From: Deltaproteobacteria bacterium
GTDB lineage: Bacteria > Myxococcota_A > Polyangia > HGW-17
DNA length: 64,000 nt
Reading direction: 5' to 3'
NCBI GenBank assembly: GCA_016937155.1
Contig: JAFGWM010000011.1
Coordinates: 1-64,000, forward strand
The notes beneath the pieces are model-generated. The model was not told the origin of the DNA. It searched no databases and saw nothing but the letters and a program-made list of their open reading frames with translations. The translations under genes were made by a program, and so were the position numbers. Positions within the stretch are counted from its first letter, which is position 1. Each line of letters opens with the position of its first letter. Positions 6,439 to 43,019 of the stretch are shown here, one piece after another.

Positions 6439-6999
6439 ATGGTTAGAAAAAATATAAAAGGTGCCGGACATCTTAGCGTTTTCATATATTTTTTTCTTTT
6501 TCTGGTGATGGTTTCACTTCTATGGATATTTCGTAACACCAAAGCCGGACACTCACTTAACTTACTTCTGCTGATTCATGATGTTAAACTATTTGTAATA
6601 GTTCTTTTCCTGGGTGGAGGAATAATATTTATCAGTGTGAAACTTTTTGATATGTATGACTCATCAGGCCTTACAAAGAATGAGTTCATGGAGATGTCAA
6701 AATCCCTGAATGATGCTTCACCATTCACCCTTGCACTGACAAGTTCTTTGGCAGAAGAATTTTTATTCAGGGGACTCATTCAGTATGTCGGAGGGTATTA
6801 TGTTCAGGCAATATTTTTTGGTTTTATGCACTGGCCTTCTGGAAAAAAACTTATAATTTGGCCTGTATGGGCACTTCTCAGTGGATCAGTTTTCGGATTG
6901 ATGGTGAGTTATACCGGTAGCATCTGGGGCGTTGTGATAGTTCATTTTGCGATAAATCTGACATCTCTTAGAGAACTCAGGAAAGATCATATTCAATGA
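6439..6999 (+). CDS. CPBP-family intramembrane metalloprotease
   Basis: This 186-residue multi-pass membrane protein has the three motifs of the CPBP (Abi/CAAX-like) protease family: EExxxR as E106-E107-x3-R111, the FxxxH motif ending at H131, and a third motif with H169 in VIVHFAINL. These are the expected catalytic and metal ligands, so it is probably active. Family members process membrane peptides or act in bacteriocin immunity. Nothing nearby encodes a substrate such as a prenyltransferase or bacteriocin. It follows the YihY gene by 2 bases and overlaps the next gene as ATGA. Confidence 0.85.
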   Translation: MVRKNIKGAGHLSVFIYFFLFLVMVSLLWIFRNTKAGHSLNLLLLIHDVKLFVIVLFLGGGIIFISVKLFDMYDSSGLTKNEFMEMSKSLNDASPFTLALTSSLAEEFLFRGLIQYVGGYYVQAIFFGFMHWPSGKKLIIWPVWALLSGSVFGLMVSYTGSIWGVVIVHFAINLTSLRELRKDHIQ

Positions 7000-7967
7000 C
7001 TTTTTTTGTTTTCCTGGCACAGGTTGTTTTTTTAGTCTCAGGGTTGGACAATCAGAGTTCATCAACTGTCAGCAAACAATCAGTCACCGTGATTATTCAG
7101 GGAGATTGCTATTTTATATTTGAAAATGGAAAAGTGTTTCTAAGAGACAAATTTGATGGACAGCCTCTGGTGGGGAAAGAAGTAGTAGTAAAGCAAAGCA
7201 ATACTATAAAAAAATATACATCAGATTCCTCAGGTCAGGTGGATCTGAGCCAGAGTGGAAACATAAAACTCATCTGGTATGGTGACGAAGTTTATCATAA
7301 GTGTGAGCTTGACATCTTTATAAAAAGCAAAACACTCAGGAGTAACCTGAGCAATTATATCCATTATTCAATACTTTTTCTGACTGTTGTATTTTCCTTG
7401 GTGGTTTTAGTAAAAAATAAATATTTTAAAAAATCAGTTTCCCTATCTGAAAAATCCACCGTCACCATTAAAGAGAACAGTTGGTTCAGTAGGGCTTTCA
7501 GGAAAAATCAATTCTATTCGGGAGTTGTATTGAGATGGTTAAATGATCAGGTTGTAGAAAATGCAGTAATTACATTATATGATGGAATTGAGTTTGTGGA
7601 AATTGCTGTTATGTCATCGGGTGAGTTTTCATTTACGGGAAAATACCTTGAATTGAGAGTAACTGCTGAGGGTTTTTTTCCGATTGAAATGAAACTTGGA
7701 AATGGATCTAACATTACCCTGAGAATGATGACTTTGAGAGAATATGCTCTTTATATTCTTAAGACACTGTGTCGGAGAAATGATCTGGATCGACCTGGTA
7801 TTTATACGCCCAAAGAAGCACTTGCTCATAATGTTCCTCCAGATGAATTTATAAGGGAAATTGAAAACATTGCTTATTCGAGTCTTGATATAACAACTCA
7901 GGAACTTATTGAACTTCTACATAAATATTCAATAAAGGTTCCAAATACAAACTCATACACTGATTGA
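6996..7967 (+). CDS. Unknown membrane-anchored protein with two beta-rich modules
   Basis: I do not recognise this 323-residue protein. It begins with a hydrophobic signal-like segment, followed by an extracytoplasmic part of about 100 residues containing PLVGKEVVVKQ and TSDSSGQVDL, which resembles a carboxypeptidase-regulatory or Ig-like beta fold. A single transmembrane helix follows at about residues 120-143. The cytoplasmic part again starts with a beta-rich module (VLRWLNDQVVENAVITLYDG). The last 80 residues are helical, with YTPKEALAHNVPPDEF, loosely like the tail of DUF4129 proteins. ATGA overlap with the CPBP gene places it in the same operon. Confidence 0.65.
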   Translation: MTFFVFLAQVVFLVSGLDNQSSSTVSKQSVTVIIQGDCYFIFENGKVFLRDKFDGQPLVGKEVVVKQSNTIKKYTSDSSGQVDLSQSGNIKLIWYGDEVYHKCELDIFIKSKTLRSNLSNYIHYSILFLTVVFSLVVLVKNKYFKKSVSLSEKSTVTIKENSWFSRAFRKNQFYSGVVLRWLNDQVVENAVITLYDGIEFVEIAVMSSGEFSFTGKYLELRVTAEGFFPIEMKLGNGSNITLRMMTLREYALYILKTLCRRNDLDRPGIYTPKEALAHNVPPDEFIREIENIAYSSLDITTQELIELLHKYSIKVPNTNSYTD

Positions 7968-8071
7968 GATCTTTTAAATTTTAAGAAGTACATCAAAAGG
8001 GAAAAACAAAAATTTATTTTCACAATAAAAACAGGTTTTTATATTTATTGTAAAGTGCGTTCATATATTTT

Positions 8072-8087
8072 TGTGACGTCAATCACC
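8072..8087 (+). promoter_or_regulatory. CRP-like operator 1
   Basis: TGTGA-N6-TCACC matches the CRP consensus TGTGA-N6-TCACA at 9 of 10 half-site bases. A second such site follows with its centre 23 bases downstream. The regulator encoded at 40695 has the CRP-type recognition residues. Confidence 0.5.
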
Positions 8088-8094
8088 GCTGAAA

Positions 8095-8110
8095 AGTGAG
8101 GCATATCACA
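8095..8110 (+). promoter_or_regulatory. CRP-like operator 2
   Basis: AGTGA-N6-TCACA also matches the CRP consensus at 9 of 10 half-site bases. It ends 13 bases before a perfect TATAAT at 8124-8129, with no good -35 box there. The spacing is not the standard class I or class II distance, so activation and repression are both possible. Confidence 0.5.
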
Positions 8111-8123
8111 GTTGTATAGCATT

Positions 8124-8129
8124 TATAAT
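8124..8129 (+). promoter_or_regulatory. Candidate -10 box (TATAAT) downstream of the CRP-like pair
   Basis: This is a perfect TATAAT without a recognisable -35 hexamer, as expected for an activator-dependent promoter. Transcription from it would give a leader of about 185 bases before the gene at 8321. The hexamer is short and can occur by chance in AT-rich DNA. Confidence 0.35.
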
Positions 8130-8239
8130 TAAAACTTTCTGTGCTGTAACTAATTGTTTTGTTATGACAATTTAGATTTCCTGGACAATAATTTATTGTT
8201 CCGGAAACCAAAACAGTCAATTCAGTTATTAGTTTGTGC

Positions 8240-8268
8240 TTGACTGAAAAGTTTAAGTAACCTATCCA
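8240..8268 (+). promoter_or_regulatory. Sigma-70-type promoter for the barrel/metzincin operon
   Basis: TTGACT at 8240-8245 and TATCCA at 8263-8268 are separated by 17 bases. The -35 box is nearly consensus and the -10 box is moderate. The predicted start lies about 45 bases before the GTG at 8321. Confidence 0.5.
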
Positions 8269-8320
8269 TATATGTGCCTGAAGAGGGCATTTCACTCACC
8301 CTTTCAAAAGGAGCCTGGTC

Positions 8321-9547
8321 GTGAAAACAATGAAGGCTTTTGTTTTAACAGTTTTTTTGTTGTTCGCCACAACAGTATCAGCCAACCCCCAGTCCGGTTC
8401 ATCTATTCCCGGAAGTGAAGATAAATCTGATGTAACTATCAAAAAATCTGCTTCCAAGGATGCACTTCACGGTCTTATTTTCCGCCTGGGACTGGGATCT
8501 AACCACAGGTTAAATCTCGAACCGGAAAATGCCGAATGGGTATCAAGTTATCATTTTACCCTCGGTTATAGGCTTGGGAAGGAGCTTTTTGGTAAGGGAT
8601 TTTTCAAACCCCTTACCGTAAGTGCTAACTTTTCACTTTCAAATGAGCTTGTCGGAAATGATCCCAGATACAGGACAGCTTATTTTTCCGACTCAAGTCT
8701 GTATACTTCGAGTATGTCATCACTGGCTCTTGTAGACAGTGTGTACACTCCAAAAGAATCAGACAGTACACCTCGAATTGTTTCGGGTGCGATGAAAAGA
8801 CCGGATTACAGCGATGTTGTAATTAATCTGTCTCATCCAAGTATCTATACTATTCCAGTTGCGAAAATCGGTATCAGTGGATCTTTCAGTGCAACGGTAC
8901 CTACTTCACTTACTTCCCGTAATGTTGGTCTTAAAACCAAGCTTGACTACAGCATCGGTTTTTCAAGATCATTTAAGATAGGCTCAATGAGTCTTGGTCT
9001 TGAATACGGATTCGGGTTCACTCAGTATTTTTATGATTATGAAACAGCGTCAATTAATTCCAATGATGATCCTGTTTATGTGAACGGCATAGCATATGAT
9101 CCGCTAACCTACGATGGCGTTTCAAGGAATACCGAGTTTGCGTTTACCAATATGCTGGGTGTTTCCTTCTCTCCAATAAAAAAACTCAGTGTGAACGCAT
9201 CATATGGTCTTCTCACAATGAGAAGTTATAATTTTTCAAACTGTGAGTACACAACTCCTGATGGAATGATAATCAATGTATGTGATACAACGACAGCAGT
9301 TCGTACATATGATGATGGTGGCAGGGGAAGAAGAGACTATCAGATGTTTTCTCTTGGCGCTTCCTACAAACTGCTTGATTATCTCTCCCTCTCGCTGACT
9401 CTGAATACCTTCACTCCTCAATTGAAACCGAGTACTGAAGAGTATCAGCAGCCATTCCTGAGTTTTGACAGAAATAATTATTCAAGCGTAATGTTCAAAG
9501 TTAGTTATTCATTTGATTCATTTTATAACAAGGTAATAGCAAAATAA
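8321..9547 (+). CDS. Outer-membrane beta-barrel protein of unknown function
   Basis: The 408-residue protein has a Sec signal peptide (MKTMKAFVLTVFLLFATTVSA, split after SA). It is then made of alternating amphipathic strands such as SYHFTLGYRLGKELF, FKIGSMSLGLEYGFGFTQYF and MFSLGASYKLLDYLSLSLTL, typical of an outer-membrane barrel or transporter-like protein. I do not recognise the family. GTG 8321 is chosen because AAAAGGAG lies 7 bases upstream; ATG 8330 is an alternative. The metzincin gene follows 23 bases later with its own GGAGG, so the two are probably one operon, and the barrel might work with that lipoprotein. Confidence 0.75.
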   Translation: MKTMKAFVLTVFLLFATTVSANPQSGSSIPGSEDKSDVTIKKSASKDALHGLIFRLGLGSNHRLNLEPENAEWVSSYHFTLGYRLGKELFGKGFFKPLTVSANFSLSNELVGNDPRYRTAYFSDSSLYTSSMSSLALVDSVYTPKESDSTPRIVSGAMKRPDYSDVVINLSHPSIYTIPVAKIGISGSFSATVPTSLTSRNVGLKTKLDYSIGFSRSFKIGSMSLGLEYGFGFTQYFYDYETASINSNDDPVYVNGIAYDPLTYDGVSRNTEFAFTNMLGVSFSPIKKLSVNASYGLLTMRSYNFSNCEYTTPDGMIINVCDTTTAVRTYDDGGRGRRDYQMFSLGASYKLLDYLSLSLTLNTFTPQLKPSTEEYQQPFLSFDRNNYSSVMFKVSYSFDSFYNKVIAK

Positions 9548-9570: not shown

Positions 9571-12500
9571 ATGTACCGATCAAGAAAACCCTTAATTCTC
9601 GCGCTGCTTGCAGCATTCATTGTGATGGGTTGTGCAGAAGAACGGCCTCCCCGTTCCTATGTTCAGCCACACGTAATGGCAAAAACTGATTTTGTAGGTC
9701 AGTGGTATTATGCACCGACCACAGTTGATATCGGTTATGCCTCAACTGTTACATTCATTGGTGAAACATCAATGGATGTTGCAATTATCTACTGGGATAT
9801 CCAGGAAAAAAATATTTTTGCCCGCCTCGCTTATGACCGTATTGACGGTGCAGAGACAGGAACCCATGAAGCATGGGAAGGTGAAATTATCGGAGCATGG
9901 AGTATCAGCCATTTCGATATTATCCGTGACTATAATGCTTCCACCGGTGAAGAGATTAACGTTATCCGTGAATCCACTGAAAGACCCTGGTATGAGAGAG
10001 AATTCATCAGGATCGACTGGACTAAGAATCTGGCTACCTCATGGGCACTGTTCTGGCCTCAGTACACTAAAATCGACAGTATCGGTTTCAGCCCTACAGA
10101 TCCTTCAGATCCTCTTTATCCAAAATATGTCAGAAACGAAGACAATGAACTTACTTATATCGGTGTAACTGATAAAGTAATCATGGCTCCTGAAATGAGA
10201 CAGCTTGATGGATGGGATTTCGCTGGTCTTACTGCGATTCCTGATTGTTTCTTCTATGGAACAACCACATCTTGTAATGCTTCACAGATCGTAATGAGAC
10301 ACGCGTTCTGGAAGAAAAATCCTGATAAGGAATATGAGCCGATGGAATACACCATGGCTGATCAGGACCGTTTCGGTTTCTTTGATACAAAAGTACTTAC
10401 ATACAATCGTCAGTATGGCATTCTCATTCAGGAAATGAAACAGTATGCAAACAGATGGAATTTCTTCCAGGAATCATTCAAAAAAGCTACTGATCAGATT
10501 ACAGCTGAAGTATATGCTGATGACGAAAATCACGAAGAGGTAGATGGCGAGCTGGTTTCCTGCCCCGGTGGCAATGAACCATGCCGTTATCTTGATGATA
10601 ATACAAAAGTTTATCTCATGGGTCTCCCCGTTTATGATAAAAGCGATGTAGCTGATGCTGACAAGGACGATGTATTTTGTCCAGTTGCTGATGATTACAA
10701 TGCTGAAAAACCCTGTTACTATATCAGTGATGGTTATACTTACTACAGACTTGCTCCGGACTGGAAAGACGATCGCTATGCAGCACGTCCAATTGGTCTC
10801 AGATACAATGCTCGTAAACTCAATCCAATAGTTTATCATCTCAACAAAAGCTTCCCTGATTCACTCTGGGGTGTTGATGAAAACGGTAACAGAACAGCAG
10901 AACCCGATCCCACAAGTGCTATCGCTCTTACAATCGGTGACTGGGCTGATTCTCACAATAACTGGCTGGATCTTGTTGGTGTAGACCGCACTGTAGTTGC
11001 TGCTAACGGAAGCACAGTTACAGTTGAATCAGTATGTCTGTGTCCTTACACACCTGCTGATACTCCAGACGATGAAGTTCCTTTTGCTTGGGGTTCTAAT
11101 GGCACCATCAGATGTCAGAAAGATATCCGTCGCGGTGATTTCCGCTGGCCTCAAATAAACTGGGTTGATGAAGCTCAGCAGTCATCTCCTCTCGGTTATG
11201 GTCCACCTCTTCCAGATCCAAGAACCGGTGAATCAATTTCCATGGTAGCTAACATTTACGGTGAAGCTCTTGATGGTTACATTGCATATCAGAGAGATAT
11301 GGTTAGAGCTCTCACTGATGATAATTTCCAGTGGAGTGAGTATCTCCTTGGTGATTATCAGGCAGCTTGGGTTAAGCTTTTCAAATACGGCACAAAGGGT
11401 AAAGACGGACAGTTTGAAATGCCAAAGGCATACTACAACTGGCAGAGACTTGGTGTAGTAACATCAAATGATCTTATCCGTAAGAGATTCCGTGCAATGG
11501 ATACTTCCTGGGCATCAAATCTGGCAAGAGACACACCTCTTATAACTGACAAGGGAAATACTGCTTTCTATAAATCAATTATGCGTCGTGTAAGTGTTTT
11601 AGCTGACTCCGGAGCATTCGGTGACGGAACTGGTGTTTACACTGGTTATTCCAAACTCAATATTCTTCGTGACAGCCCAATCGAAGACAAAATGATGACA
11701 AATCAGGTTCTTCTTTCACAGGCAAACACTGTTGTAGAAGCTGGCTATGATCCAATCAGTGTTGATGCAAGTCTTCTTCCATACGGAAGTGAAGTGCGTC
11801 AGAGAATCAGTCCTTTCACAAGCATGAATGTTGCTTATCACAGAGCAATTGATAAGGCTAAAATACGTCACCAGAAAAACACAGTTCTTTATGCTGATGT
11901 TCCTTTTGCTGATACATTCTCATATGGTATTGCAAAACAGCTTGTTGACACATACTGCGGTGGTTCCTGGAACAACGAAACTTTCGGAACATGTGGCGAC
12001 ACAATTTATGATGTACTCAGATCTGAAACTTTTGTTGGTGTTACTATTCATGAAATGGGACACAACATGGGTCTTCGTCACAACTTCAAAGGTACTTACG
12101 ATGCTATGAACTTCTTTGATCCCTACTGGGAAATCAGAGGTTATGATGGCACAATGGGTCCAAGAACAAGTGATCCTATCACTCAGTACGAAATTGAAAA
12201 CAGAATCGGTGATTACGCTTACACCTCAATCATGGACTACAATGGTGCATGGAATGGTGACTTCCTGAAAACAGGTAAGTATGACCGCGCTGCCATCAAC
12301 TTCGGATATGTAAGATATCGTCAGATATTCAAGAGTGTTATAGATACCAACGGTATTTCAACTATGCAGGATTTTGTTGAATTCTCATATCCAGCTCCGT
12401 TACTTCTCTATGAAGCTCCACAGTCAATTCATTATACCGCTTTCCATGATTATGCAGATCTCACTGCGGACAACAGAGAATTTGTTCCAAACGCGTGGAT

Positions 12501-13914
12501 CAAGAAAAGAAGACTTAACAATAGTGAAATGTGGGTAACTGAAGCTGACGTTGATCCTACAAATCAGAGCCGTTACATGGTTCCATTCATGTACTGCAGT
12601 GATGAATTCAGAAATCTCTCTCTTGGATGTAACCTCTTCGATCAGGGCGCTGACCTTTATGAAATAAGTTCATACCTCATCGAAAGATATGAGAACAACT
12701 ATGTTCTGAATAACTTCTCTCGTGGTCGTTATACATGGGGATGGGATGAAGGCTCTTATCAGGGAAGAATCGTTTCCAGATACTTTGATATTCTCCAGAA
12801 TCACGCACAGTACTACATGCTTTGGCTTGGTATCTTCAAGGATTATTTTGAAGAATATTACGGAGCAAAGGGTGTTGAAGACTTCTTCTCTAACGACGTA
12901 AGTGGTTGGGGTTGGTGGACAACAGCAGTCAGTGATATTTTCTCAACATTCTTCAGAGTACTTACAATGCCACAGCCTGGTTACTTCCAGAAGGTTACAG
13001 ATCCAATGGGAACTGAATACTTCAAATTCAATACCGACGAAGAAATTTATTGTTCCGACTTCAACCCAGGTGGTGACTGTGAAGTTAATATACCGTTGAT
13101 TGCCGGTAAATACATTGATGACAGTTGGGATTTCGACTATGGTTATGAGTGGTATCTCAAGATGACTCGTCGTGGACAGTTCTTTGACCGTCCGGTAGCT
13201 ATTCAGATGCTGGCTGAAGCAACAAACAACTTCCTTGGCCGTGATACTCAGGAAGACTTCAGAAAGTATACTCTGAACTTCGCAAGAATATATCCAAACC
13301 AGATTATGGATCTCTTCGCTGGTATTCAGGTAAATGACTGGGGTAAAATTGCTCCCAAGTATTGTGGTAATGACACAGATGGTACAGCAATAATTGCTCA
13401 CCCCTATGCTGGTGATGATGTGACCGGTAACTGTCCAAATGGTGCAACCGGGGAATACATTGATCCAAATAACACCTTCACTGTCCAGCTTTACAGTGCA
13501 GTTCTCGGTATGGCAATGTTCCCGATGAACTACTCACAGGAATTCATTGATCACTCAAGAATTTACGTGAGAGGTAATGGCGAAGGTATCGACTTTGATC
13601 CTGCATCAACCGTGGAATTCATTGATCCCTTCAGTCAGAAGGAATTCATTGCACTTGAGTATCCAATGGCAGGAACAACAGATACTTCAATCGGTGCCCG
13701 TATGCTTCATTATGCAAACGATCTTCTCGATGAATACAATCTTGCTGAAGCTGATTACATTCTTGCAGGTGGTGATCCTGACCTTGCTCCGGATGAATAC
13801 GATGCATATGTTTACACCAAGAGAAATCTTGTAAACTACATTGATAATCTGGAAATGGTTCGTGGTCTTACCAGAACCCTCGAATTTGCAGACTTCCAGC
13901 CTCCTTCATACTAA
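9571..13914 (+). CDS. Very large zinc metalloprotease lipoprotein (metzincin, EcxA/DUF5117-like)
   Basis: The protein has 1447 residues and a lipoprotein signal with the lipid Cys at residue 21 (VMGCAEE). The zinc site HExxHxxGxxH is complete (H827, E828, H831, H837) and is followed by NFKGT. A Met-turn lies about 50 residues later (SIMDY, M888). This arrangement matches the EcxA-like zinc-dependent metalloproteases with DUF5117/DUF4953 regions known in Bacteroidetes and proteobacteria. About 800 residues precede the catalytic domain and 500 follow it, with several Cys pairs that may be disulfides. TTC, AAC and TAC codons are more common than in neighbouring genes, suggesting strong expression. 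It is probably cell-surface or periplasmic; its substrate is unknown. Confidence 0.85.
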   Translation: MYRSRKPLILALLAAFIVMGCAEERPPRSYVQPHVMAKTDFVGQWYYAPTTVDIGYASTVTFIGETSMDVAIIYWDIQEKNIFARLAYDRIDGAETGTHEAWEGEIIGAWSISHFDIIRDYNASTGEEINVIRESTERPWYEREFIRIDWTKNLATSWALFWPQYTKIDSIGFSPTDPSDPLYPKYVRNEDNELTYIGVTDKVIMAPEMRQLDGWDFAGLTAIPDCFFYGTTTSCNASQIVMRHAFWKKNPDKEYEPMEYTMADQDRFGFFDTKVLTYNRQYGILIQEMKQYANRWNFFQESFKKATDQITAEVYADDENHEEVDGELVSCPGGNEPCRYLDDNTKVYLMGLPVYDKSDVADADKDDVFCPVADDYNAEKPCYYISDGYTYYRLAPDWKDDRYAARPIGLRYNARKLNPIVYHLNKSFPDSLWGVDENGNRTAEPDPTSAIALTIGDWADSHNNWLDLVGVDRTVVAANGSTVTVESVCLCPYTPADTPDDEVPFAWGSNGTIRCQKDIRRGDFRWPQINWVDEAQQSSPLGYGPPLPDPRTGESISMVANIYGEALDGYIAYQRDMVRALTDDNFQWSEYLLGDYQAAWVKLFKYGTKGKDGQFEMPKAYYNWQRLGVVTSNDLIRKRFRAMDTSWASNLARDTPLITDKGNTAFYKSIMRRVSVLADSGAFGDGTGVYTGYSKLNILRDSPIEDKMMTNQVLLSQANTVVEAGYDPISVDASLLPYGSEVRQRISPFTSMNVAYHRAIDKAKIRHQKNTVLYADVPFADTFSYGIAKQLVDTYCGGSWNNETFGTCGDTIYDVLRSETFVGVTIHEMGHNMGLRHNFKGTYDAMNFFDPYWEIRGYDGTMGPRTSDPITQYEIENRIGDYAYTSIMDYNGAWNGDFLKTGKYDRAAINFGYVRYRQIFKSVIDTNGISTMQDFVEFSYPAPLLLYEAPQSIHYTAFHDYADLTADNREFVPNAWIKKRRLNNSEMWVTEADVDPTNQSRYMVPFMYCSDEFRNLSLGCNLFDQGADLYEISSYLIERYENNYVLNNFSRGRYTWGWDEGSYQGRIVSRYFDILQNHAQYYMLWLGIFKDYFEEYYGAKGVEDFFSNDVSGWGWWTTAVSDIFSTFFRVLTMPQPGYFQKVTDPMGTEYFKFNTDEEIYCSDFNPGGDCEVNIPLIAGKYIDDSWDFDYGYEWYLKMTRRGQFFDRPVAIQMLAEATNNFLGRDTQEDFRKYTLNFARIYPNQIMDLFAGIQVNDWGKIAPKYCGNDTDGTAIIAHPYAGDDVTGNCPNGATGEYIDPNNTFTVQLYSAVLGMAMFPMNYSQEFIDHSRIYVRGNGEGIDFDPASTVEFIDPFSQKEFIALEYPMAGTTDTSIGARMLHYANDLLDEYNLAEADYILAGGDPDLAPDEYDAYVYTKRNLVNYIDNLEMVRGLTRTLEFADFQPPSY

Positions 13915-13927
13915 GTTGATTTTTTAA

Positions 13928-13952
13928 CGGGTGATGCTTAACGCATCACCCG
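13928..13952 (+). terminator. Hairpin after the metzincin gene
   Basis: CGGGTGATGC and GCATCACCCG form a perfect 10-bp stem with a 5-base loop, 13 bases after the stop codon. The sequence after it (GCTTATTC) has no real T run. It could be an intrinsic terminator of modest strength or a 3' end that protects the mRNA. Confidence 0.65.
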
Positions 13953-14041
13953 GCTTATTCCCCAAATTATTATCCATAAAAATTAAAAAAGAATTGACTA
14001 TAATCCGACAAACTCCTAAAAATCAACGCCGGAGGTGTATT

Positions 14042-15247
14042 ATGAAACATCAGAAAATTGGCGAAAGCGCAAAAAACTATACGAATGAATGTAAAGAATT
14101 TCTTAAGGATATAATTTCCATCAGGAGTGTATCCTGTGAGGAAAAAGAGGTTGTTCAGCGTATAAGTGAAGAAATGAAAAAGGTAGGTTTTGATGAAATC
14201 AAAATTGATGGTCTTGGAAATATACTTGGAAGAGTAGGAAACGGACCAACAGTTATTGCGATGGATTCACATATAGATACTGTTGATGTTGGTGATCCTG
14301 AATTGTGGGATCACGATCCCTTTGATCCCGTTGAAAAAGACGGAATTATATACGGACGCGGAGCAAGTGATCAAAAAGGCGGAATAGCAGCAATGGTATA
14401 TGCTGCAAAAATCATCAAGGAGCAGAACCTTGATAAGGACTGTACGGTATGGATGGTTGGAAGTGTGATGGAAGAGGATTGTGATGGACTCTGCTGGCAG
14501 TATATCATTAAGGAAAAAGTAATTAATCCTGAAGTTGTTGTTCTTACCGAACCTACGAATCTTAATCTCTACCGTGGTCACAGAGGGAGAATGGAAATCG
14601 AAGTGGAAACAAAGGGAATTTCCTGCCACGGCAGTGATCCAACAAGGGGTGATAATGCAGTTACAAAAATGGCTCCTGTTATCACACAGATTGATCAGTT
14701 GAACAAGGATTTGAAACCAACGGAATTTCTTGGTAAAGGAACAGTGGCAATAAGTCATATTAGAAGTACTTCACCATCACTTTGTGCAGTAGCGGATTCT
14801 TGCACTATTCATCTGGACAGAAGACTCACAGAAGGGGAGGACGAAACTGTAGCTGTTAATCAACTGAAGGAACTTCCAGGGGTAAAAAATTCCGGTGCAC
14901 GGATTAAGGTTCTTGATTATGCTGCTAAAGCCTATACCGGCCTTGTCTATCCCACGAAGAAGTTTTACCCTACATGGACACTGGGAGAAGAACATATGGC
15001 AGTGCAGGCCGGCAAAGCCGCTGCTGATGATATACTGCAAAGAGAAGTTATCATCGATAAATGGGTATTTTCAACTAATGGTGTGGCCACCGCTGGAATG
15101 TTTAATATACCAACCATTGGTTTTGGACCTGCAAATGAAATATATGCACATTCAGTTGCTGATCAGATTCCCATAGAGCATCTTGAAAAGGCAATCGGTT
15201 TTTATGCTGCTTTCGTTGCAGAATATATGGAAGCTAAAAACAAGTAA
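14042..15247 (+). CDS. ygeY: YgeY-type M20-family hydrolase (selenium-metabolism-linked peptidase homologue)
   Basis: This 401-residue protein is an M20/M25/M40 metallopeptidase-fold hydrolase. It has the metal-site segments DSHIDTV, GRGASDQKGG and EED, and the glutamate and histidine of the dimer domain. The segments WDHDPFDPVEKDG, LYRGHRGRMEIEV and LGEEH closely resemble YgeY, a hydrolase of unknown exact substrate often found with selenium-dependent molybdenum hydroxylase genes. None of those partners is present here. ATG 14042 is supported by GGAGGT 5 bases upstream and gives the usual N-terminus. A possible promoter (TTGACT at 13994, TAAAAA at 14017, 17-base spacer) precedes it. Confidence 0.85.
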   Translation: MKHQKIGESAKNYTNECKEFLKDIISIRSVSCEEKEVVQRISEEMKKVGFDEIKIDGLGNILGRVGNGPTVIAMDSHIDTVDVGDPELWDHDPFDPVEKDGIIYGRGASDQKGGIAAMVYAAKIIKEQNLDKDCTVWMVGSVMEEDCDGLCWQYIIKEKVINPEVVVLTEPTNLNLYRGHRGRMEIEVETKGISCHGSDPTRGDNAVTKMAPVITQIDQLNKDLKPTEFLGKGTVAISHIRSTSPSLCAVADSCTIHLDRRLTEGEDETVAVNQLKELPGVKNSGARIKVLDYAAKAYTGLVYPTKKFYPTWTLGEEHMAVQAGKAAADDILQREVIIDKWVFSTNGVATAGMFNIPTIGFGPANEIYAHSVADQIPIEHLEKAIGFYAAFVAEYMEAKNK

Positions 15248-35912: not shown

Positions 35913-38120
35913 TCACCAGGAGAAGGTGATGAAGTTAACTATATTGTCATCAGAATCCGGTATGGTGTCGCTGTAGGGATCCTCCGGGTCAGTTGAGGAA
36001 ACAGCGGTCATAATCATGACTGAATTGTCAACATCCAAAATAGTATCACTAATATCTATTGAGAAATCTATACTGTCAACCAATCCTGAAACTGGGGATA
36101 TTACTAATGATGATGGCGTAGCAACCTGTGTCCATACATTGTTTTCACTTTCATAGTAGGAGATACTGCCCTCTTCAAGAATAATGGAAATCATGTTTCC
36201 ACCTACATGGTCAACCAAAGTAACATCGTGGTAACCATCAATGGTGCAGCCTGAGTGGAATACAGTGCGGAAGTATAATGTTCCATCCATATGGAGAGCC
36301 CATAGTTCTTTAAGATCACACTCATAAATTGAAGTGTCATGATCTCCCTCAGCATCACCTTCCGGAGTGAGATTCAAAAGATTTGTTCCCAGAGTTATGA
36401 TTCTTTCAGAGGTCCACTGGTTTCCATCTCCGTCAGTAAAAGTGAACTCAAGATTTATTGCTTCCCCTGCTGTGGTGGAAGATGGGATTGTAATGCCCCA
36501 TGGAGAACAGGAAGCAAATTCACCAGCCATAAGGCCGTCCGGTGTGCAGACAGAGCTTGCCGGTGGAGTAAGAGTTACACCTTCGGCAGTTGATGAAGAA
36601 AGAACATTTAACGAAACACTTATTTCTCCACTGGCATCAAGTGCCCCTGAGTTAATGGCATTAAATGAAAGTTCAATTTCTTCTCCGGGATCTCCAACTC
36701 CATTTCCATTATCATCAGAAGTAATCTCCAAAGAGTTGTAGGTAATATTGGCATAAGGAACTTCAATCAGAACCGGGAACGACCATATATTGCTGTCCTC
36801 ATCGGCAATTGCAAGATTGAGCAGTACCGGAGAATTATCTTTGTGATTCTCCCCAATATCAAAAACAAACGGAGTGGTGTTTATAGCCTGACCTCCAGCG
36901 GTAATATCACCGAAATCGCTGGAAGAAGTATTTATAATCACATCTGTATCAACAGTAGAAATTTCACCAACTACTCCAGAAGCATCAGTACCACCAATAT
37001 TTCTGATAGTTACATTCATGGAGATCTGGCTTCCGGGTGTGACAACAACAGGTGAGAGCTCTATTCCCGAATTTTCAAGGATTGCCGGGGCAATATCCAT
37101 AACTAAGCAATATCCGTTTGTCGCATTCTGATAGCCCTGAACTTCAAGAAAGTATGTTTTTCCGGATTCAAAATCATAGATTATTTCTTCATTGTCAGTG
37201 GTGGACCAGCTGTATGCCAGTTCATTCATCTCAGCGTTATAAAGAAAAATGTCCAGATCCCCGCCGGAATTTGAGAACAGGGCATTTATTGAACCGGTGA
37301 ATGCTGTATCGGGAGTGAATGTATACCAGTCCTTCCAGTTTGGCCCGCATGTATAACCACAGATCTGTGTTGAAGGAAAAGATGAAACATCAATTATGAC
37401 AGCACTTTCAGGAGTGGTGTTTCCAAGGTCATCTTCTGTGCATCCGCAATCCACATCCCCTGTGCAATCAGGATCATCGCAGTCTATAAGCCCATCCATA
37501 TCATTATCGGTTCCATCACCGCATTTTTCGTCAGGAACCATACAAAAACCATCTTCGGTGTTACACAGTCCTGTAACTGAGCAGTCTTCAGATGATTGAC
37601 AGTCAGCCCAGCAAACATTTACAGCATCATCAATCTGAAAGCATCCCATTCCATCACGGCAGTCATTACCACCGAGTTCACATTCAGGAAGGCAATAGCT
37701 CTCTCCGGATGTAAATTCGACGCATGCAAAACCTTCTTCCTCACAGGTGTCGGTACATGGTACCATGCAGGCACCCGATGGCACACCATAGGAAATTTCA
37801 TCAAAGCACTCAATTGAATCACCGATACATTCAGCGGATGAGCTGCATGGTTCAGCAGTTCCGCTGACAGCATCATTGTTGCATCCTGATGTATCAAAGG
37901 TTGCACAGTCATCTGAACATCCCAGCGTTCCTCCGATAAATCCCTGGGATGAACATGTTTCACCTCTCAGGTAGTCAGTGTCACACACTTCACCATCTTC
38001 AATGATACCATTTCCACATCCCTGAATATTATTTGTGTTGTTATCATTGTTGGTGGAATCATCGTCACAGCTAAATACCAATAACACTGAGGTAAGTAGG
38101 ATCAGTACAATATTTCTCAT
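35913..38120 (-). CDS. Large surface lipoprotein with Cys-rich, PPC-like and Ig-like domains
   Basis: The 735-residue protein has lipid Cys18 followed by DDDSTNNDNNTNN. Next come Cys-rich modules (CGNGIIEDGEVCD, CSSxxECIGD, CGDGTDNDMDGLIDCDDPDC) known from Myxococcota secreted proteins. A pre-peptidase C-terminal-like domain (about residues 250-345; DWYTFTP, GGDLDIFLYN) follows, then two or three CARDB/Ig-like domains (VTIRNIGGTDASG; FNAINSGALDASG). It has no catalytic domain, so adhesion or a structural role is likely. GGAGAG lies 6 bases before ATG 38120. Its stop meets the plus-strand gene at 35911. Confidence 0.8.
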   Translation of the reverse strand: MRNIVLILLTSVLLVFSCDDDSTNNDNNTNNIQGCGNGIIEDGEVCDTDYLRGETCSSQGFIGGTLGCSDDCATFDTSGCNNDAVSGTAEPCSSSAECIGDSIECFDEISYGVPSGACMVPCTDTCEEEGFACVEFTSGESYCLPECELGGNDCRDGMGCFQIDDAVNVCWADCQSSEDCSVTGLCNTEDGFCMVPDEKCGDGTDNDMDGLIDCDDPDCTGDVDCGCTEDDLGNTTPESAVIIDVSSFPSTQICGYTCGPNWKDWYTFTPDTAFTGSINALFSNSGGDLDIFLYNAEMNELAYSWSTTDNEEIIYDFESGKTYFLEVQGYQNATNGYCLVMDIAPAILENSGIELSPVVVTPGSQISMNVTIRNIGGTDASGVVGEISTVDTDVIINTSSSDFGDITAGGQAINTTPFVFDIGENHKDNSPVLLNLAIADEDSNIWSFPVLIEVPYANITYNSLEITSDDNGNGVGDPGEEIELSFNAINSGALDASGEISVSLNVLSSSTAEGVTLTPPASSVCTPDGLMAGEFASCSPWGITIPSSTTAGEAINLEFTFTDGDGNQWTSERIITLGTNLLNLTPEGDAEGDHDTSIYECDLKELWALHMDGTLYFRTVFHSGCTIDGYHDVTLVDHVGGNMISIILEEGSISYYESENNVWTQVATPSSLVISPVSGLVDSIDFSIDISDTILDVDNSVMIMTAVSSTDPEDPYSDTIPDSDDNIVNFITFSW

Positions 38121-38252
38121 GCTTCTCTCCGTATGAAAATTTTCAGCATAATTGCATAAATTCTGATAGCTGAAATTCAAAAAAAGTCAAAGAATAAAAA
38201 AATATCCTGTAAGTTGTATATTTGATTAGTTTTCATTTTTCGACTGTTTATC

Positions 38253-38268
38253 CTGATATAAACATCAG
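38253..38268 (+). promoter_or_regulatory. LexA-like SOS box upstream of uvrD/pcrA
   Basis: CTG-N10-CAG with AT-rich interior (CTGAT-ATAAAC-ATCAG, a 5-bp inverted repeat) matches the core of the gammaproteobacterial LexA box. It lies 110 bases before the helicase gene, a known LexA target in E. coli. Deltaproteobacterial LexA proteins often use other motifs, so this is tentative. Confidence 0.4.
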
Positions 38269-38377
38269 TTGTATTTTTTTATTTTTAGTATCGGCAGATG
38301 TATTCAGAATATTTTTCATTCCAACTTCAGCTTGTAATGAGCGCAAAAATACGGCACAAGTCTCGGGGAGTTTTAGA

Positions 38378-40525
38378 ATGAGCCGATTTATTGAGGATCT
38401 GAATAACAGACAGAGAGAAACAGTTGAAACCCTTTCAGGTCCAATGCTGGTGCTGGCTGGTGCCGGTAGTGGGAAAACAAGAGTTTTAACCAGAAGAATA
38501 GCTAATTTAATAGAAAATGGAGTTTATCCACACAGGATTATTGCTGTTACCTTCACCAATAAAGCTGCAAAAGAAATGCAGCAGAGAGTTAATGAGCTTT
38601 TGGGGGATGGTGCAATGGGGCTGTGGATGGGTACATTTCACTCCATAGCTGCAAGACTTCTGAGAATTTATGGTAATGAGGCAGGAATAGATCCTGATTT
38701 TGTCATATACGATGCGGACGATCAGAAATCCATAATTAAAAGAATACTCAAGGACCGAAGTATGGAGGTTGATGCATCTGTACTTAGAAATACCATCGCA
38801 CTTTTTGAAAATTACAGGAGAAAAAGTATTCCCAAGTTGTATGCTCCATGGAACGAGATTTATAAGAAGTATATGGAGACCCTTGTGGAAAGTAAAGCGG
38901 TTGACTTTACTGGACTTATTGAATATGGGGCAAAACTGCAGAGTGTGATATCCACTTTGTGGGATCATGTTCTTGTTGATGAGTTTCAGGATACAAGCAA
39001 TATTCAGTTTGAATTTCTCAGACAGATGGTTGGTAAAGACCGGAATATATGCGTAGTGGGTGATGATGATCAGTCCATTTATTCATGGCGAGGGGCAAAT
39101 CCTGAATACCTTCTCAAATTTGAAAAGGAATTTCCCGGGGCAAGAAAGATCAAACTTGAAGAAAATTACAGGAGTACAGGGTATATAATCAGAGCGGCTT
39201 CTTCTCTGATTTCAAAAAATACTGTGCGTCATGATAAAACGTTAAGAACAATGGCTCCTGATGGGGATAAACTGACTCTGGTGAGACTTGATAACGGCAG
39301 GCTGGAAGCCAGATGGGTTATTGCCAGAATAAACCTGCTCTCCGAATCAGGCGTTTCTCTTTCAGATATTGCAGTGCTCTATCGGATAAATGCACTTTCA
39401 AGAGCCCTTGAGGAGGAATTAACCAGAAACGGCATCAATTATCGTCTCATTGGAGGGCTGAAATTTTATGAACGTGCTGAAATCAAGGATATAATTTCCT
39501 ATCTCAGGCTTGCAGTTTCCAGAGACAGTGAAAATGATATTCTCAGAGTGATGAATACTCCAAGAAGAGGTATTGGACAGAGCTCTATTGAGAAAATAAG
39601 AGCTGTTCAGAAAACAGATAAAATATCCCTGTGGGATGCTCTCAAATCTCCAATGGCAGAAATTTCCGGATCCGCCAGAAAAGGGATCCTTGAATTCGTA
39701 TCCATTGTTGAAGAACTTTCCTCTCTTGCTCAAAACGAACATCCAGTTGTTATTCTCACCCATCTGATGGAAGCCACTTCCTGGCTGGGAATGAAGGGCT
39801 CTGAAGATCCTGATGAACAAAGCAGATTTGAAAACATGATTCAGTTGCAACAGAGTTTTGAGGAAAGACATCAGGAAATTCCTGATCAGTTGCTTCATGG
39901 ATTTCTTGACGAAATTTCTCTCCTGAGTGGTGAGGACCAGCCTCAGGGGGAGGATGGTGTGACACTTATGACAATACACAGCGCCAAAGGTCTGGAGTTT
40001 GATCATGTGTTTCTTCCAGGATGGGAAGATGGTGTTTTTCCCATGAAAAGAAAAGATGAAGAGGTAAATATTGAAGAAGAGAGGCGTTTGGCTTATGTTT
40101 CAATTACAAGAGCCAGAAAAAGAGTTTATATCAGTTGTGCATTGGAAAGAAGTGTGTGGGGACCTCCTATTCCTGCTAAGCCCTCACCATTTATCAGGGA
40201 ATTACCACTGGATTGTCTGGACTGGGAGGGTATAGTCCGAAAATCTTCATCTTCTGAGGAAAGCTCAAGACAGTCATACAAAAACAGTGTTTCATCCCAG
40301 CGAGCAACTGGGAGAAGGAATATTTCGCCTTCAAGCGCATTGAAGGATGTTAGCGAGAAAGTTGAATCTGACGGTTTTGCCCCTGGTGTGTTTGTAAATC
40401 ATGTAAAATTCGGTCACGGCAGGATCATTTCCGTGGTCGGAGAGGGTAAAATGCGTAAAGCTATTGTGAAATTTCAAAATGGTGAGTCCAAAGTCATCAT
40501 CACATCTTTTCTCAAAAAAGCATGA
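38378..40525 (+). CDS. uvrD: UvrD/PcrA-type DNA helicase
   Basis: This superfamily I 3'-5' helicase acts in nucleotide excision repair, mismatch repair and removal of stalled polymerase. The 715-residue protein has LNxxQ (Q12), Walker A AGAGSGKT (K33), DEFQDTS, GDDDQSIYSWRGA, a TIHSAKGLEFDHVF motif and an arginine-finger segment. The last 45 residues form a Tudor-like domain (FVNHVKFGHGRIISV) typical of PcrA/UvrD, which contacts RNA polymerase. ATG 38378 follows GGGGAG and gives the family N-terminus; a longer frame upstream is AT-rich, hydrophobic and not homologous. A LexA-like box lies upstream. Confidence 0.93.
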   Translation: MSRFIEDLNNRQRETVETLSGPMLVLAGAGSGKTRVLTRRIANLIENGVYPHRIIAVTFTNKAAKEMQQRVNELLGDGAMGLWMGTFHSIAARLLRIYGNEAGIDPDFVIYDADDQKSIIKRILKDRSMEVDASVLRNTIALFENYRRKSIPKLYAPWNEIYKKYMETLVESKAVDFTGLIEYGAKLQSVISTLWDHVLVDEFQDTSNIQFEFLRQMVGKDRNICVVGDDDQSIYSWRGANPEYLLKFEKEFPGARKIKLEENYRSTGYIIRAASSLISKNTVRHDKTLRTMAPDGDKLTLVRLDNGRLEARWVIARINLLSESGVSLSDIAVLYRINALSRALEEELTRNGINYRLIGGLKFYERAEIKDIISYLRLAVSRDSENDILRVMNTPRRGIGQSSIEKIRAVQKTDKISLWDALKSPMAEISGSARKGILEFVSIVEELSSLAQNEHPVVILTHLMEATSWLGMKGSEDPDEQSRFENMIQLQQSFEERHQEIPDQLLHGFLDEISLLSGEDQPQGEDGVTLMTIHSAKGLEFDHVFLPGWEDGVFPMKRKDEEVNIEEERRLAYVSITRARKRVYISCALERSVWGPPIPAKPSPFIRELPLDCLDWEGIVRKSSSSEESSRQSYKNSVSSQRATGRRNISPSSALKDVSEKVESDGFAPGVFVNHVKFGHGRIISVVGEGKMRKAIVKFQNGESKVIITSFLKKA

Positions 40526-40694
40526 TTTTTAGTGACGAAGATAACATTCAGGGGAAATCAACGTGGCGAAAATGTCACACTATACGGCAAATATTTTTAT
40601 CTTCAGATGATTTGTTTTAATAAAAATAAATAAAAACAATGCTATATGGGGTTTGGCATTTGTGTTGCTCTTACAAATTCTGTGAGGTGACATC

Positions 40695-41369
40695 ATGAGA
40701 CTAGTTAAACAGCATGTAGATTTTCCAACACTATTAAAGAGACTATCCCCTTTTAAGGCAGTCAGTGATGAAGCAATGAGGGACCTGGAACAGAGATTTG
40801 TGTACAGAAGATACTCCAGGGGAACAGTTATATCTGAGAGTTCAAGGGAAGTTGATGAGATTTTCCTGATACGTAACGGGAAGGTACATATATATCTGAA
40901 GAATTCCGAAGGTGAGGATCTTTTACTTCACAGCTTATCTCAGGGTGATGTATTTGGACGTAAGCTTGGTGGTTTCAGCGCTGCTCTTCCAACAGAAATC
41001 AAGTGTATGGAAGAAATGGGGGTTCTGGTGCTAAAATCTGACACTCTAGCTGATCATATCAGAAGGTTTCCGGAGACTTCCCTTATTCTGGTGAATATTA
41101 TGGCTTCAAGGCTCCAGGAAAATTATGAAACAATGGCATGTCTGAGTCTCGGTGATGTCAGCAGCAGACTGGTGAGACTTCTGAAAAGACTTGGAGAGAA
41201 AGATGGAATAAGAGATGATGAAGGAATTCTTCTTCCCAATCGTTTTACTCAGCAGGAACTTGCTCAGATGATAGGTGCCAGAAGAGAGACTGTATCAAGA
41301 CTGCTCAGCAGTTTTGTGGAAAATGGCACTCTTACGAGAAGGAATCGCAATCTTGTGCTGAGGTTTTAA
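40695..41369 (+). CDS. CRP/FNR-family transcription regulator
   Basis: This 224-residue regulator has a cNMP-binding-like beta barrel (about residues 20-120), a long dimer helix and a C-terminal winged helix FTQQELAQMIGARRETVSRLL. The recognition helix has R197, E198 and R202, the same triad CRP uses to read TGTGA. FNR differs there. The cAMP-binding cassette is not well conserved (GDVFGRKLGG, no clear Arg-Ser pair), and the FNR-type N-terminal cysteine cluster is absent, so the effector is unknown. GAGGTGA precedes the ATG. Two TGTGA-N6-TCAC-like sites occur upstream of the gene at 8321. Confidence 0.9.
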   Translation: MRLVKQHVDFPTLLKRLSPFKAVSDEAMRDLEQRFVYRRYSRGTVISESSREVDEIFLIRNGKVHIYLKNSEGEDLLLHSLSQGDVFGRKLGGFSAALPTEIKCMEEMGVLVLKSDTLADHIRRFPETSLILVNIMASRLQENYETMACLSLGDVSSRLVRLLKRLGEKDGIRDDEGILLPNRFTQQELAQMIGARRETVSRLLSSFVENGTLTRRNRNLVLRF

Positions 41370-41461
41370 TCTTCAGTTGTAATCTGACACCGGTTTTTCA
41401 TAGTTTCATAATGTAATTACCGTGATATTTTCTGAAAAACGATTCAGTGTTCAAATTCAGC

Positions 41462-41490
41462 TTGACAACAGTCAGAACAGACATTATTCA
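41462..41490 (+). promoter_or_regulatory. Candidate promoter for rho
   Basis: Perfect -35 TTGACA at 41462-41467, spacer of 17 bases, and weak -10 TATTCA at 41485-41490. The gap to the rho ATG is about 280 bases. Confidence 0.35.
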
Positions 41491-41596
41491 TATTCTCGAA
41501 TTTATCCTGCGCTTTTTTACATTTTAATTAGACATTAACTTACAGGAACGAGCCTATTGGGTGCCGGATAAACCGAATTCATTTGCCTGAGTTGTT

Positions 41597-41618
41597 ATAC
41601 CCGTTATTTTTCGGGTAT
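41597..41618 (+). promoter_or_regulatory. Hairpin in the rho leader
   Basis: ATACCCG and CGGGTAT pair over 7 bp with an 8-base T-rich loop. It lies in the untranslated region of rho. The T-rich loop and lack of a following T run make a terminator unlikely; a leader structure is more likely. Confidence 0.35.
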
Positions 41619-41771
41619 CCCCTGATAGAAGGAAATAAACCGAGAGAGGTATCGAAACCATAAACCAATTCCCCACTTAAATATTCCTAAGGAACTTTTA
41701 ATTCTTGTATAAATATTATTCAACGTTTAACAAAATGAAATTGACGAAACGAAACAAAACAAAGGAGAGTC

Positions 41772-43019
41772 ATGAATTTATCTGAAATTAAACGCCTACC
41801 AATGAAAGAACTTGTTCACCTTGCAGCATCCTATGATATAGCTGATGCTGTTAACCTGAGAAAACAGGATCTTATCTTCCGCATCCTCGAATCTGCTGCC
41901 ATTAGTGGTGAAACCATTATCGGTCAGGGAGTTATTGAAATTCTTCCTGATGGATACGGTTTCCTTAGATCCCCCGATTATAACTACCTTCCTGGTCCAG
42001 ATGATATTTATGTGTCCCCTTCACAGATAAAGAGATTCAATCTCAGAACAGGTGATACAGTTCAGGGAGAGATTCGTCCTCCAAAAACATCAGAGAGATA
42101 TTTTGCACTCCTGAAGGTTGATCAGATTAATACTGAACCTCCTCGTGCCCAGCTTGATAAGATACTTTTTGATAATCTGACACCTCTTTATCCTCAGGAA
42201 AAACTGGTTCTCGAATCTGATCAGAAAAATATGTCCACACGTATTGTTGATCTTCTAACTCCTATCGGACTGGGACAGAGATGTCTTATTGTTTCACCTC
42301 CAAGAGCTGGTAAAACAATGCTGCTTAAGGATGTTGCAAATGCAATAAGTGCAAATCATCCTGATTGTGTTCTCATGGTGCTTTTAATAGATGAAAGACC
42401 GGAAGAAGTTACAGATATGGAAAGATCCGTCAGGGGTGAAGTGATTTCTTCAACTTTTGATGAGCCGGCTGCAAGACATGTCCAGGTTGCCGAGATGGTT
42501 ATTGAAAAAGCCAAAAGACTTGTTGAACACAGAAAAGATGTTGTTATTCTTCTGGATTCAATTACCAGACTGGCTCGTGCCTACAATACGGTGGTTCCGC
42601 CATCAGGAAAAATACTTTCCGGTGGTGTTGATTCCAATGCACTGCACAAACCAAAACGTTTCTTCGGTGCAGCAAGAAATGTTGAAGAGGGTGGAAGCCT
42701 TACAATTATTGCAACTGCTCTAGTTGATACTGGTTCCCGTATGGACGAAGTTATTTTTGAGGAATTCAAGGGTACCGGTAACAGTGAAATTCATCTTGAC
42801 AGAAAGCTTATGGAAAAGAGAATTTTCCCCTGTCTGGATATTAATAAATCAGGTACAAGAAAAGAGGAGCTCTTACTTCCTCCTCATGTACTCAACCGTG
42901 TATGGATTCTCCGTCAACTGTTGCATCCACTCAATGTTATTGATGCTATGGAATTTATGCTGGATAAACTTGGAAAAACAGAGTCCAATCAGGAGTTTGT
43001 AGACTCCATGTCTGCCTGA
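41772..43019 (+). CDS. rho: Transcription termination factor Rho
   Basis: This hexameric RNA-dependent ATPase ends transcription at Rho-dependent sites. The 415-residue protein has the N-terminal helical head ([20 protein letters not shown]), a cold-shock-like RNA-binding domain ([23 protein letters not shown]), the Q-loop and R-loop region, Walker A SPPRAGKT, and [27 protein letters not shown] lies 4 bases before the ATG. It is followed by two genes (43046, 43537) with overlap or short gaps, forming an unusual operon. Confidence 0.97.

Follow-up and report, generated by a model that had tools for sequence, protein, structure and literature searches.

Conserved CRP-type operators upstream of a barrel-metzincin operon, and a candidate CRP-family regulator, in an uncultured myxobacterial relative

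The window, that is, the whole stretch of 64,000 nucleotides analysed here, comes from an uncultured myxobacterial relative with a genome of 4.1 Mb (G000). The first gene of the operon under study (8321-9547, + strand, GTG start at 8321) encodes a 408-aa outer-membrane beta-barrel, which matches no Pfam or NCBIfam family. An AlphaFold2 prediction, although of low confidence (mean pLDDT 56), resembles outer-membrane barrels of solved structure, with FapF as the best match. The second gene (9571-13914, + strand) encodes a 1447-aa putative lipoprotein metzincin protease carrying HEMGHNMGLRH and a lipobox-like N terminus, for which Pfam gives only sub-threshold matches to M12 and DUF4953. An M20-family peptidase gene (13931-15247, + strand; PF01546) follows after a gap of 16 bp and is probably part of the same operon. 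The barrel and metzincin genes are adjacent in the eight relatives whose contig extends far enough, and the same operon occurs in named records, namely Myxococcota MAGs, HGW-Deltaproteobacteria-17 and -22, and one Polyangiaceae MAG.

Upstream of the first gene lie two dyads (no strand assigned). Site 1, TGTGA-N6-TCACC, is TGTGAcgtcaaTCACC at 8072-8087 (centre 8079.5), and site 2, AGTGA-N6-TCACA, is AGTGAggcataTCACA at 8095-8110 (centre 8102.5). Each matches the CRP consensus at 9 of 10 positions, and the centres are 23 bp apart, exactly as an earlier note on this DNA had described. The ribosome binding site AAAAGGAG is located at 8306-8313 (+ strand), and its AAGGAGC is kept in most relatives. 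A small-ORF search gave nothing convincing, and a coding origin of the dyads was rejected; a search of 7900-8400 found no riboswitch or terminator. Downstream of the dyads, and before the conserved promoter described below, we notice an imperfect inverted repeat, TTTCCTGGACAATAATTTATTGTTCCGGAAACC (8176-8208), which is not seen in the sister species of the same genus (G001) and has no Rfam match and no terminator call.

How much weight a consensus match deserves was judged by pattern searches with mismatches, used in place of a scan with the full matrix. Six sites of at least 9/10 occur in the window, against 3.4 expected under a first-order Markov model. The four besides this pair are intragenic, so the earlier claim that no comparable site exists in the intergenic regions is valid for the window. 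Genome-wide, TGTGAN6TCACA with at most one mismatch occurs at 188 places in G000, compared with 128 for the reversed control. Moreover, a perfect 10/10 site, TGTGAGTGTTATCACA, lies 64 bp before holB, the gene for DNA polymerase III delta' (contig C48, 21031-21046; L125:2002), and the part of G001 that can be aligned there does not contain it. With 188 sites in the genome and an unconserved perfect one, the match score by itself is little evidence, and we rejected it as a mark of an operator. The pair is less common: two sites 16-40 bp apart are expected 0.017 times per 64 kb, and the pair with 23-bp spacing occurs only once in G000. As a pattern, GTGA..TCAC-9-GTGA..TCAC is found once in G000 with no mismatch and once in G001 with one, and its remaining matches are weaker, at or near control level.

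We collected relatives by orthologues of the operon's first gene and compared their upstream regions. GTGAY-N4-RTCAC was found 200-270 bp before the orthologous first gene in seven relatives of five lineages, where the flanks cannot be aligned. In G001, site 1 corresponds to TGTGACACAAATCACC and site 2 to TGTGCTTTATATCACA, again 23 bp apart. The orthologous site is TGTGACTAATATCACT in G002, TGTGATGGAGATCACT in G003, TGTGACCCATATCACC in both G004 and G006, TGTGACCCACATCACC in G007, and AGTGACCTGCATCACT in G009, which belongs to another family of the order. Upstream of the orthologous operon, G010 and G012 lacked the site, as did G053, which is more distant. From the site density, 0.0004-0.003 occurrences are expected per upstream region, although multiplying these values across the lineages would not yield a strict probability, given their shared ancestry. 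When all 323 intergenic dyad positions were tested with the sister species left out, 8072 ranked first for conservation; its conservation sum was 36 against a mean of 28.5 (SD 1.8), i.e. 4.1 SD above the mean.

Site 1 is kept throughout the family and in a second family of the order; site 2 is conserved within the genus only. The gene upstream in the window (6996-7967) went undetected in the flanking sequence fetched from G004, G006, G007 and G009, where the barrel-metzincin pair and the site persist, which indicates that the site belongs to the barrel-metzincin operon. By this distribution, site 1 appears to be the ancestral operator of the operon and site 2 a genus-level one. It is extremely improbable that the earlier reader simply picked two consensus-like dyads among many: the abundance of 9/10 sites (188 per genome) and the perfect, unconserved intergenic site before holB speak for chance, but they are outweighed by five lineages with diverged flanks, the unique tandem and the first rank among 323 dyads. 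The reading of this pair as a chance find is contradicted by conservation. Having the TGTGA-N6-TCACA dyad conserved upstream of orthologous operons that characterises CRP-type operators, the dyads at 8072-8110 are, judged from sequence, evolutionarily conserved CRP-type operators.

The earlier note had further placed a promoter beside site 2, at a TATAAT which indeed begins 13 bases past the site (8124-8129, + strand). This hexamer is probably not a promoter: it is unconserved in G001, lacks a -35 match and would set site 2 at -33.5, overlapping the -35 position. At -33.5, CRP usually hinders RNA polymerase. We rejected it in favour of the best-supported promoter at 8240-8268 (+ strand), in which a -35 TTGACT (8240-8245) is separated by a 17-bp spacer from a -10-like TATCCA (8263-8268), read as TTGACT...CCTATCCA, with a predicted transcription start near 8275. 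TTGAC-N17/18-TA, with CC preceding the TA, is kept in 10/10 orthologous operons, including those without the site. CTTGACN15-17CCTA is rare genome-wide (8 versus 62 in the control), which marks it as specific to this operon rather than as a widespread type of promoter. A run of 33 consecutive bases, TTTGTGCTTGACTGAAAAGTTTAAGTAACCTAT (8234-8266), is identical between G000 and G001 and includes the whole promoter spacer. The spacer contains an imperfect dyad, ACTGAAAAGTTTAAGT, at which a second regulator may bind.

The TTGAC...CCTA promoter is the only one conserved across the ten operons, and it lies about 140-160 bp downstream of the dyads, so a regulator bound there would act from a distance. 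In both G000 and G001, the two sites are centred 160.5 and 137.5 bp upstream of the -35; in the other relatives the distance is 133.5-169.5 bp. This distance has no fixed helical phase among relatives, and simple looping is therefore not favoured. Alternatively, a separate CRP-dependent promoter near site 2 might add to the conserved one and place the regulator at a class I/II distance. In G001, a -10-like hexamer, TATAGT, sets the site at -69.5, near the class I distance, and an extended -10 picked by eye in G000, TGTTATGAC, would set it at about -72.5. However, a -10/-35 pair at constant distance is not shared by the seven relatives and is missing altogether from the GC-rich ones, the promoter scan was at chance level, and TATAAT at 8124-8129 is unconserved. 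We consider such an additional promoter somewhat unlikely and retain action from afar on the promoter at 8240-8268.

The window also encodes P0001 (40695-41369, + strand), a CRP/FNR-family regulator. It is flanked by a uvrD/pcrA helicase gene and rho (38222-43019), and G001, G002 and G003 show the same gene order. Above cut-off, P0001 has PF00027 and PF13545/PF00325, i.e. an N-terminal cNMP-binding-type domain and a C-terminal Crp-type HTH, which place it in the CRP/FNR superfamily, and its PDB matches to CRP/GlxR reach 7e-22. The recognition helix reads ...GARRETVSRLL..., with the R-E-x3-R triad of CRP proper, as claimed earlier, and RRETVSR is present in all P0001 orthologues from families f1 and f3 (RRETISR in G003). 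The cAMP pocket is degenerate. At the cAMP-contact positions E72, R82, S83 and S128 of CRP proper, P0001 has R, L, P and Y, and it scores 74 bits on the NCBIfam CRP equivalog NF008732, whose cut-off is 266. The orthologues accompanying the site also lack all four residues; the more distant proteins of G008 and G011 retain E72 and R82. Thus, the recognition surface has been retained among the orthologues and the cAMP pocket has not, which strengthens the doubt about cAMP voiced in the earlier note.

We then compared P0001 with its paralogues. G000 has three CRP-like proteins with HTH_Crp_2 above cut-off and a fourth cNMP-domain protein (contig C48). Among these four, only P0001 has the complete R180/E181/R185 of CRP. 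L016 has R-E...A (TRETVSA), L018 has P-E...R (RPESFSR), and L128 has none of the triad. P0001 orthologues with 40-74% identity are present in 7/7 relatives with the site. In G010 (97% complete) and G012 (65% complete), the operon is present with neither a clear P0001 orthologue nor the site; the co-occurrence amounts to few independent events, since G010 and G012 come from the same family and the G012 assembly reaches only 65% completeness. It is conceivable that a different CRP/FNR protein occupies these operators, which would still be genuine and of CRP type, because at least three further cNMP-domain proteins are encoded in the genome (L016, L018 and L128). None of these carries the full triad, and in G010 an L016-like protein (TRETVSL) accompanies the operon, yet there is no site, which makes this alternative quite unlikely. 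The triad, the paralogue comparison and the co-occurrence support P0001, as proposed earlier, as the best candidate for the regulator, and we infer that it controls the operon. Autoregulation of P0001 was rejected, as its own upstream region has only 8/10 sites, at chance level and none well conserved.

A wider regulon was searched for with GTGAYN4RTCAC. Across the whole genome, the motif is not over-represented in G000 (8 versus 13 in the control), nor is it in G001 or G002. The only one of the 8 exact sites in G000 that lies upstream of a gene is that of the barrel-metzincin operon; the search of G000 yielded no further target in an intergenic region upstream of a gene, which is unusual for a CRP-type regulator. 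GC-rich relatives do show an excess, but so does G010, where a P0001 orthologue is lacking, and the inspected examples from G004, G006 and G007 are intragenic, so this excess is probably codon bias. On these grounds, a broad regulon was rejected. In G001, GTGATATATGTCAC (L134:2022, contig C90) coincides in part with the presumed -10 of a TTGACT promoter and is a candidate second target; it could be a repressor-type site, and the gene behind it encodes an Asn-rich, Cys-rich lipoprotein. Another lipoprotein of G001 (L136) was rejected as a second target, having no full-length relative in G000. A Cys-rich CGNGIVEPGEDCD-type domain of surface lipoproteins has at least 55 partial matches in G000, one of them at 37869-38099 of the window.

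Taken together, we think it reasonably probable that the dyads are CRP-family operators, most likely those of P0001, which would act independently of cAMP or on another signal, and distally on the promoter at 8240-8268. P0001 would read DNA in the CRP manner, with R-E-x3-R on GTGA/TCAC. Site 2, added or kept in this genus only, would allow two dimers to sit side by side. With the cAMP pocket lost, P0001 may bind without cAMP or respond to a different signal. It would act from afar, as the operator-promoter distance favours, the two sites being centred at about -196 and -173 relative to the predicted start; the means could be DNA bending, or aid to or block of another factor. We infer this distal action and slightly prefer activation as its sign. 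A more pointed version, which we regard as rather unlikely, is a cAMP-blind, nearly single-target CRP devoted to one barrel/metzincin operon through a distal operator 130-170 bp upstream, regulator and operator being gained or lost together in an uncultured Myxococcota lineage.

The earlier interpretation thus stands as to real operators, a best candidate regulator and a doubtful cAMP signal, and fails as to the adjacent TATAAT promoter. The dyads and P0001 represent fairly ordinary gene regulation of a known kind. Through them, a surface protease operon acquires a conserved operator and a candidate regulator that can be named, in myxobacterial relatives represented here only by metagenome-assembled genomes, and P0001 is a further CRP homologue that seemingly works without cAMP. 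The holB site serves as a control, illustrating that an operator can be recognised by its conservation but not by its consensus score alone.

Compared with Escherichia coli CRP, the proposed system shares the TGTGA-N6-TCACA half-sites with their 6-bp gap, the R180/E181/R185 triad and, judged by sequence, the fold. It differs in that P0001 lacks E72, R82, S83 and S128, no broad regulon was detected, and the dyads are not at -41.5/-61.5 of a recognisable promoter. Clp of Xanthomonas does not use cAMP but c-di-GMP. Like the proposed regulator, Clp is a CRP homologue with two sites in one promoter, through which it activates an extracellular-enzyme gene (PMC6430473). Clp, however, is a global regulator of an unrelated lineage. 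At engXCA, the -35 is overlapped by one Clp site, and the second is found upstream of that element (PMC6430473). MrpC of Myxococcus xanthus differs in binding hundreds of promoters and in its motif, TGTYN8RAC (PMC4320627), which the dyads do not match, as they begin with TGTG and AGTG and their fourth base is not Y. MrpC, for which no ligand is reported, binds alone, and its sites can be 112-274 bp upstream of starts; for such distal sites, the authors propose competition with an activator or malK-type DNA-bending help (PMC8844925). Likened by description rather than by sequence comparison with P0001, MrpC shares with the proposed system its CRP family, the phylum of the host and its distal sites.
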